Assembly: GCA_026708325.1 (NCBI GenBank)
Contig: JAPOVC010000018.1
Location: 62,001-126,000, forward strand
Reading direction: 5' to 3'
Length of the DNA stretch: 64,000 nucleotides
Source: Anaerolineaceae bacterium
GTDB lineage: Bacteria; Chloroflexota; Anaerolineae; Aggregatilineales; Phototrophicaceae
Below, in pieces: positions 48,230-49,226 of the stretch. A program made the translations under genes and the position numbers. The notes under the pieces are model-generated. The model was not told the origin of the DNA. It saw only the letters and a program-made list of their open reading frames with translations, and searched no databases. Position 1 is the stretch's first letter; every line of letters begins with the position of its first letter.

Positions 48230-49030
48230 ATGACAATCTGCGTAAGCGTAAAGACTCGTGACGGCATCGTGTTGGGCACGGACAGCATGTCGACGGTGAC
48301 GCTTTTCGGTACCGAAGGTCAGTCAATGGCACAGAAGACTTACAGCAATGCCCGGAAGCTCGTGCAGATAGGTGAACTCCCTGTTGGCGTCTTCACTTAC
48401 GGCCTGGGCAATTTGGGGTCTCGTACGGTTATAAGCCACATACTTGAATACAGTCGGACACTCGAATTCGGCAATGACTGGAGAGTAGAAAGCATTGCTG
48501 CGGGTTTGTCAGAGCACATGTCGCGGGAATACAGTGCGATACACGCTGACGTCGAGCCTGGCCCGGTTCTCGGTTTGCATGTAGCCGGGTACTCAGACGG
48601 TTCTTCCCTGTCGGAAGAGTGGGAAATTGAGTTCCCTGACTCGCCCGGCCCGAATCTTGAGATGGACAGCCATGAGTTCCGGGTAAACTGGGAGGGAGCA
48701 ACACTTCCGTTCGGGCGGCTGTTTCATGGATTCGACCCCGGGATAATAAGGATTTTACTGGAGGAAGGTGTCGAACAGAATTTGCTTCAGAAATCGTTGA
48801 CCGAATCTCCGCTCGTGCCACAAGTGTCATTTTCTGCAATGCCTTTGCAGGATGCCATCAACTTCGCTGTTTACGTTTTGCGGACGACGATCGGTTTCAC
48901 CTCGTTTGAAGCAGGACCGGCGACCTGTGGTGGTCCGCTTCAGATTGCTGTAATATCAGAAGAAGATGGATTTCAGTGGGTGAGCAGGCCAGAATTCAGG
49001 ATTCCGGAGGACACCAATGAGTGGGCCTGA
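48230..49030 (+). CDS. Proteasome/HslV-like Ntn hydrolase, stand-alone
   Basis: 266 residues. The start MTICVSVKTRDGIVLGTDSM resembles HslV and proteasome beta subunits. If Met is removed, Thr1 becomes N-terminal and Asp falls exactly at position 17 (GTDS), as in the catalytic set T1-D17-K33; a lysine in NARKLVQIGELPVGV (K42) could match K33 after a short insertion. TYGLGNLG fits the following beta-turn. The rest is not recognised. Base composition is visibly lower in GC than neighbouring genes, with more A/T third positions, which suggests transfer. The last codons overlap the next small gene by 14 bases. No partner ATPase or alpha subunit is nearby. The peptidase role is inferred. Confidence 0.75.
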   Translation: MTICVSVKTRDGIVLGTDSMSTVTLFGTEGQSMAQKTYSNARKLVQIGELPVGVFTYGLGNLGSRTVISHILEYSRTLEFGNDWRVESIAAGLSEHMSREYSAIHADVEPGPVLGLHVAGYSDGSSLSEEWEIEFPDSPGPNLEMDSHEFRVNWEGATLPFGRLFHGFDPGIIRILLEEGVEQNLLQKSLTESPLVPQVSFSAMPLQDAINFAVYVLRTTIGFTSFEAGPATCGGPLQIAVISEEDGFQWVSRPEFRIPEDTNEWA

Positions 49031-49226
49031 ACGACGGAACGCACTTGACAAATGGAAGTACAACCAGTCTGGCAAGCCGAGACTTACCGGCAAGCCCGTT
49101 TCCACAGTCGTGATTCTTGACAAAAAATACTCCCAGTCCGGCCCCTTCGTGCCGGGCGAACGCGTGAGTCGGCTTTATCCACCGTTGATTCCGAAGCAGA
49201 AGAAAGACAGGGACCGGCAGGCCTGA
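49017..49226 (+). CDS. Small basic protein overlapping the proteasome-like gene
   Basis: 69 residues, not recognised. It has WKYNQSGKPRLTGKP, then VSTVVILDKKYSQSGPF, and a basic tail KQKKDRDRQA. It starts 14 bases inside the proteasome-like gene in another frame with GGAGG upstream, so the two are likely to be translated together. It shares the lower GC of its neighbour. It may be a substrate, adaptor or cofactor; this is inference only. Confidence 0.6.
   Translation: MSGPERRNALDKWKYNQSGKPRLTGKPVSTVVILDKKYSQSGPFVPGERVSRLYPPLIPKQKKDRDRQA

Follow-up and report, generated by a model that had tools for sequence, protein, structure and literature searches.

A proteasome-like hydrolase with a small overlapping partner gene, and type II toxin genes behind the same pair in many relatives

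Among the described relatives of the proteasome are the Proteasome homologs with Multiple Insertions (PMI), reported by Fuchs, Alva and Lupas in 2021. PMI-2 to PMI-6 carry insertions at the H3/H4 site, with further insertions in PMI-3 to PMI-6, and the authors report that neither genomic context nor co-occurrence pointed to a function (PMC8665760). Connectase, a ligase, belongs to the same superfamily (PMC8665760). A third protein controls antitoxin stability in the TAC and CmdTAC systems, in TAC through an added antitoxin segment (PMC6377645, PMC11618068), and the orthocaspase MaOC1, encoded beside a toxin–antitoxin (TA) pair, cleaves its antitoxin (PMC7935541). Here we describe two overlapping genes in a 64,000-nucleotide (nt) stretch of DNA from an Anaerolineaceae bacterium (the window): a proteasome-like hydrolase of 266 amino acids (aa) and a partner of 69 aa. 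We found that a small, fast-evolving open reading frame (ORF) follows the hydrolase gene in most members of the family and that a type II toxin gene often stands third, in bacteria and archaea alike. This arrangement is new here, and our search of the open-access literature turned up no paper that connects these hydrolases with TA operons. On balance, we lean towards regarding the window pair as the minimal form of a protease-controlled TA-type module.

Active site and fold of the hydrolase

The window hydrolase, which starts MTICVSVKTRDGIVLGTDSM, has Thr at position 2, Asp at position 18 and Lys43 within NARKLVQ. Removal of an initiating Met ahead of Thr or Ser is well established, and Thr2, Asp18 and Lys43 correspond to proteasome Thr1, Asp17 and Lys33. 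All 131 non-redundant, near-complete relatives carry Thr or Ser directly after the start codon, Asp or Glu at position 18 and Lys at position 43 (Table 1). Because of this, and because both window ORFs show a ratio of non-synonymous to synonymous substitution rates (dN/dS) of ~0.1 against a congener, we take the conservation to go beyond chance.

Family searches left both proteins unassigned. Neither the hydrolase nor the partner matched a Pfam, NCBIfam or PADLOC family; the hydrolase was not matched by PF00227 (HslV and Pfam Proteasome), and the window genome contained no PF00227 match anywhere and no other proteasome-family gene at the Pfam level. The only PHROGs match of the hydrolase was phrog_5990, an unknown family whose 427-position profile has the length of the long-form relatives. 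Searching PDB with the single sequence by phmmer gave matches at chance level only, and a profile was required. A profile of 11 relatives matched proteasome alpha and beta chains (best expectation value (E) 2e-4), and proteasome subunits made up nearly all of its PDB matches up to E = 1. An AlphaFold model built from 96 sequences reached a mean predicted confidence (pLDDT) of 94.1 and a predicted TM-score (pTM) of 0.90, and its top PDB matches in Foldseek were all 20S proteasome or Anbu subunits (E 1.8e-8, probability 1.0; TM-score ~0.52 by query and 0.66 by target). The ORF at 48230–49030 is a genuine proteasome-superfamily N-terminal nucleophile (Ntn) hydrolase with an alpha-beta-beta-alpha fold of proteasome type, and the catalytic residues and Ntn fold proposed in an earlier note on this DNA both held up.

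The model further places the hydrolase among the PMI homologs. Helices 171–178 and 183–191 are inserted between helices 159–166 and 206–224 (H3/H4), with no other large insertion. The turn at 27–31 is short, so there is no long S3/S4 insertion (a PMI-5/6 trait), and 8 residues lead from the end of H2 (105) to the next strand (114), with no long pore-loop insertion (a PMI-3/4 trait). Short-form members, the window hydrolase included, thus appear PMI-2-like in the model, an assignment made by insertions; the longer relatives (417–449 aa) resemble PMI-4. With PMI homologs the family shares the proteasome fold, the Thr/Ser1–Asp17–Lys33 residues, the H3/H4 insertion, a wide spread in bacteria and methanogenic archaea, and phage members in the long form. 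It differs in the small partner gene and the frequent type II toxin gene found here, neither of which is reported in PMC8665760.

Compared with HslV, Anbu, BPH and the 20S proteasome beta subunit, the hydrolase has the same fold and active-site residues but extra H3/H4 helices, no PF00227 match, no ATPase gene and a separate operon partner. As the earlier note had remarked, an ATPase partner is missing: no HslU-type ATPase occurs among the ORFs read at 44–53.5 kb, and no ATPase recurs around the relatives. The suggestion made there of a self-compartmentalised peptidase fared less well, as we found no evidence for it and the H3/H4 insertion speaks against simple stacking of rings.

The small partner and the toxin genes behind it

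The start of the window partner overlaps the last 14 nt of the hydrolase gene, and a GGAGG lies 6 nt before its ATG, as originally described. Defining a partner as an ORF of 40–140 aa with a ribosome-binding motif and a start −62 to +50 nt from the hydrolase stop, we found one in 87 of 134 non-redundant members; of 496 control genes from the same loci, only 48 had one (odds ratio 17, p 1e-37; gene calls in the relatives' loci are ORF-based). Partner sequences are highly divergent and recognisable within clades only. Comparison of the window with its congener locus L031 gives a dN/dS of 0.10 (hydrolase) and 0.11 (partner, 58 codons), and other measurable partner pairs give 0.10–0.31; partners are therefore real genes. 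They usually evolve faster than the hydrolase, as in L133/L136 (47% versus 76% identity), with L063/L086 and L070/L083 as exceptions.

Within the MSLGI-type clade, 5 of 10 partners, with and without a toxin, contain W-x6-hydrophobic/R-x-[IV]-x2-Y against 0.015 expected in shuffles, a motif that is suggestive only, the pattern having been picked post hoc after viewing these sequences. A Doc-clade partner is predicted to be disordered over residues 1–46 and to form a confident helix at 47–70. Actinobacterial partners (L078, L080, L099, L109) are of low complexity with a common short [VT]Y...GAA-like motif. We sought natural hydrolase–partner fusions in C-terminal extensions of the relatives and found none. 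A role as a Pup-like tag was rejected on the ground that the partners have no common C-terminus.

Among the 105 short-form loci, 36 have a third gene that Pfam assigns to the type II toxins, distributed over Fic/Doc (12), PIN (12), ParE/RelE types (8) and PemK/MazF (4). A scan of neighbour families picked up Doc-like and PIN genes recurring right after the partner, and reading all third genes revealed more. Hidden Markov models of the toxins matched 36 ORFs that lie on the hydrolase strand and ≤520 nt downstream of it and, elsewhere in the 1.26 Mb of flanks, a single further ORF; as the models were built from the 36 downstream toxins, the informative figure is the single match elsewhere. By eye, L044 has an additional ParE-like frame outside the Pfam-called set. 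The third genes at L047:6879-7544 (222 aa) and L043:2598-2978 (127 aa) have no Pfam toxin family and are candidate new toxin types.

Which toxin accompanies the pair varies between close relatives. A quick IQ-TREE run of 105 rows gave a hydrolase tree on which the toxin label must change ≥20 times. RelE-type and MazF-type toxins occur on it as scattered single cases, and the sisters L046 (PIN) and L061 (MazF) carry different toxins. These label changes and swaps between close sisters indicate that toxins are exchanged while the hydrolase stays constant. The window row sits on a long branch and clusters with L032 (Doc) and L033 (RelE); support for this grouping is 91, not starred. Partner length tracks toxin presence, with medians of 90 aa for toxin-linked and 63 aa for toxin-less partners (p 8e-7), the window partner measuring 69.

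Five partners were queried against plasmids by tblastn, and that of L045 alone gave an informative match. Its tail (62–97) shares 56% identity with the tail of a 72-aa antitoxin-like protein on a Kovacikia plasmid, and the next Kovacikia protein shares 51% with the L045 toxin. The partner and the Kovacikia antitoxin-like protein differ in their N-terminal parts, and no hydrolase is annotated alongside the Kovacikia pair. We infer from this comparison that toxin specificity lies in the tail and that the N-terminus is the part that changes when a hydrolase is present. Overall, the loci resemble type II TA modules (phd/doc, vapBC, relBE/parDE, mazEF) in that a small gene precedes a Pfam type II toxin gene in 36 relatives and the L045 tail matches the tail of an ordinary ParE antitoxin; they differ in having the hydrolase gene first, a partner that lacks any known antitoxin DNA-binding domain and, in the window, the absence of a toxin. 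The earlier note had suggested a cofactor or substrate; rather than a generic cofactor, the partner is antitoxin-like in many relatives, with a toxin gene next.

Composition, history and distribution of the unit

The pair (48230–49226) has a GC content of 0.534 versus a window mean of 0.675 and is the lowest-GC stretch of ~1 kb when ranked within the window. GC at third codon positions is 0.58 in the hydrolase and 0.66 in the partner; the flanking glycosyltransferase and nucleotidyltransferase genes, the latter 138 nt beyond the partner, have 0.87–0.88. The lower GC noted earlier is thus real. Among 97 other genomes of the same family, the unit is absent from 95 (one of which matched a flanking gene over just 35 bases), and the two that share it are congeners.

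Both congeners carry damaged copies. G446 (locus L031) has the pair where the window has it; its hydrolase contains a nonsense codon and the C-terminus of its partner is shorter. In G447 the same flanks (93% identity at the end of the upstream gene) enclose a unit with most of the hydrolase deleted and the partner frameshifted. The unit is being lost within the genus and is still under selection in the window species. Its foreign composition and its absence from 95 of the 97 family genomes support the transferred two-gene unit of the earlier note, but the transfer was not a recent one, since the site is common to three congeners, two of which are losing the unit. Acquisition of the unit probably predates the split of the genus, in agreement with the low GC. 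The hydrolase frame at L031:6001-6801 has one in-frame nonsense codon despite the dN/dS of 0.10, which could mean recent loss, assembly error or readthrough; the codon comes from a metagenome assembly, where error is possible.

Of 399 other genomes sampled from the phylum, 15 contain relatives, which also turned up in GTDB genomes of many phyla, methanogens included; the GTDB loci kept were the best 80 of 224, so this sample is biased to close relatives of the window. Relatives also occur in viral contigs, and a tblastn search of plasmids and phages with the window hydrolase gave no match. Firmicute members L113, L115, L117, L118, L035 and L049 adjoin phage endolysin and baseplate genes, a usual place of prophage cargo, and have partners of 45–64 aa (44 aa in L117). 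The long-form (427 aa) members L132, L133, L136, L139, L141 and L153 have partners with a common KDFF/KDFL motif and adjoin an opposite-strand gene resembling a phage antitermination protein; no toxin gene was found there. At L155:2181-6804, in a head operon resembling that of a gene transfer agent or prophage, an HK97-type prohead protease and the major capsid gene flank an inserted long-form hydrolase with its small partner. Capsid maturation as a general role was rejected, L155 already having a prohead protease.

Table 1 Features of the hydrolase–partner pair in the window
Feature	Position	Strand	Basis
Proteasome-like Ntn hydrolase, 266 aa, PMI-2-like by insertions	48230..49030	+	Residues, model, Foldseek, profile matches, dN/dS 0.10
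Thr2 codon, N-terminal nucleophile (Thr1 once Met is removed)	48233..48235	+	Relatives: Thr 97, Ser 34 of 131
Asp18 codon (proteasome Asp17)	48281..48283	+	Relatives: Asp 127, Glu 4 of 131
Lys43 codon (proteasome Lys33)	48356..48358	+	131/131 relatives
Gly58 codon, candidate equivalent of the proteasome oxyanion-hole Gly47	48401..48403	+	Short form 105/105, long form 20/26
Residues 167-205, H3/H4 insertion with two extra helices	48728..48844	+	Model secondary structure; site as in PMC8665760 for PMI-2 to PMI-6
GGAGG ribosome-binding site of the partner, within the hydrolase ORF	49006..49010	+	Sequence
Small partner, 69 aa, antitoxin-like position, no toxin gene after it	49017..49226	+	dN/dS 0.11 over 58 codons

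A proposed proteolytic switch and its rivals

We propose that the hydrolase would act as a proteasome-superfamily peptidase using Thr1 after Met removal, and that the overlapping small gene would encode its dedicated client. In three-gene relatives, the client's C-terminal tail would neutralise a Doc, VapC-like, RelE/ParE or MazF toxin, and its mostly disordered N-terminal part would replace the usual antitoxin DNA-binding domain. By holding and cutting this N-terminal part, the hydrolase would set the antitoxin level and free the toxin in response to a signal. The window has no toxin, and the partner there, short and tail-less in length, would form with the hydrolase a reduced unit under selection. 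A broader version, which we hold tentatively and rate a little below an even chance, makes short-form PMI-type homologs the sensor-protease of a new TA class. Here a constant hydrolase would be combined with a modular client whose tail is exchangeable (Doc, PIN, RelE/ParE, MazF), giving one proteolytic switch for many toxins, and two-gene forms such as that of the window would couple this same switch to a target in the host or in a phage.

Precedents exist for parts of this scheme. MaOC1 demonstrates that a protease can cleave a neighbouring antitoxin, with an unrelated enzyme: its gene likewise lies by a TA pair, of ParDE-like type, but it is a cysteine protease described in one cyanobacterium, and the antitoxin cleavage is MaOC1's (PMC7935541). 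TAC and CmdTAC are alike in a third gene that would control antitoxin stability via an extra antitoxin segment, and differ in a SecB-like chaperone in place of the peptidase fold and in that the hydrolase here comes first in the operon.

Several observations weigh against the proteolytic switch. A nucleotidyltransferase gene, and no toxin gene, stands next to the window partner. Most toxin-less members keep the pair, so the toxin is not essential to it. We detected no sequence similarity between the window partner and toxin-linked partners, and no Pfam antitoxin family matched the window partner or those of 10 relatives. Nor is the small gene always beside the hydrolase, as the earlier note had wondered: it recurs, but a 'solo' clade of Pseudomonadota (mainly Acetobacteraceae/Roseomonadaceae and Noviherbaspirillum) has no clear partner, and we keep its members as real exceptions. 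The hydrolase is retained at these solo-clade loci (L068, L072, L074, L077, L082, L085, L088-L091, L094-L097, L069, L104, L105).

The pair's persistence without toxins, in most loci, the window included, and throughout the long-form class, together with purifying selection on the toxin-less partner, would also suit a partner that is an inhibitor, assembly factor or gate of a peptidase that is itself the effector, with toxins as occasional add-ons. We rate this as rather unlikely, given that four unrelated toxin families occupy the exact same place after the partner and that partner length follows toxin presence. It is unlikely, too, that the hydrolase is a non-proteolytic holder, stabilising the antitoxin like the SecB-type chaperone of TAC so that its loss lets housekeeping proteases degrade the antitoxin. 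The three-gene layout and client-specific extension do resemble TAC/CmdTAC (PMC6377645, PMC11618068), and the partner N-terminus is predicted to be disordered; a nucleophile, acid and lysine kept in 131/131 members would be unneeded for pure binding.

Slightly less probable again is that, within the genus, the unit is a decaying three-gene remnant with no present function: the damage in the two congeners speaks for decay, but both window ORFs are intact, with dN/dS of 0.10–0.11 against the very congener that bears the nonsense codon. We give very little credence to the hydrolase as a transpeptidase that attaches the partner to targets as a tag. Connectase offers such a protein ligase in the same superfamily (PMC8665760), and a small disordered partner by a proteasome-type gene recalls Pup, but partners have no common C-terminal or internal ligation motif and neither ligase nor Pup genes recur in the neighbourhoods. 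Equally improbable is that prophages have spread the pair as a phage structural peptidase and its scaffold or substrate. Several members do lie in viral contigs by lysis, tail or head genes; against this, L155 has its separate prohead protease just upstream and the pair there looks, by eye, like cargo before the capsid gene, and around many members, including that of the window, no phage genes can be recognised. For the window itself, where no toxin is present, several local functions are conceivable: the unit may be a reduced one with another target or an anti-addiction remnant, or the peptidase itself may be the effector.

Uncharacterised proteasome homologs have lacked a functional clue, and operons with four unrelated toxin families give them a direct, testable function. 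If the proposal is true, a dedicated in-operon protease, not Lon or Clp, would release toxins from their antitoxins in one family. The pairing with toxins suggests that these enzymes are dedicated controllers of TA switches.
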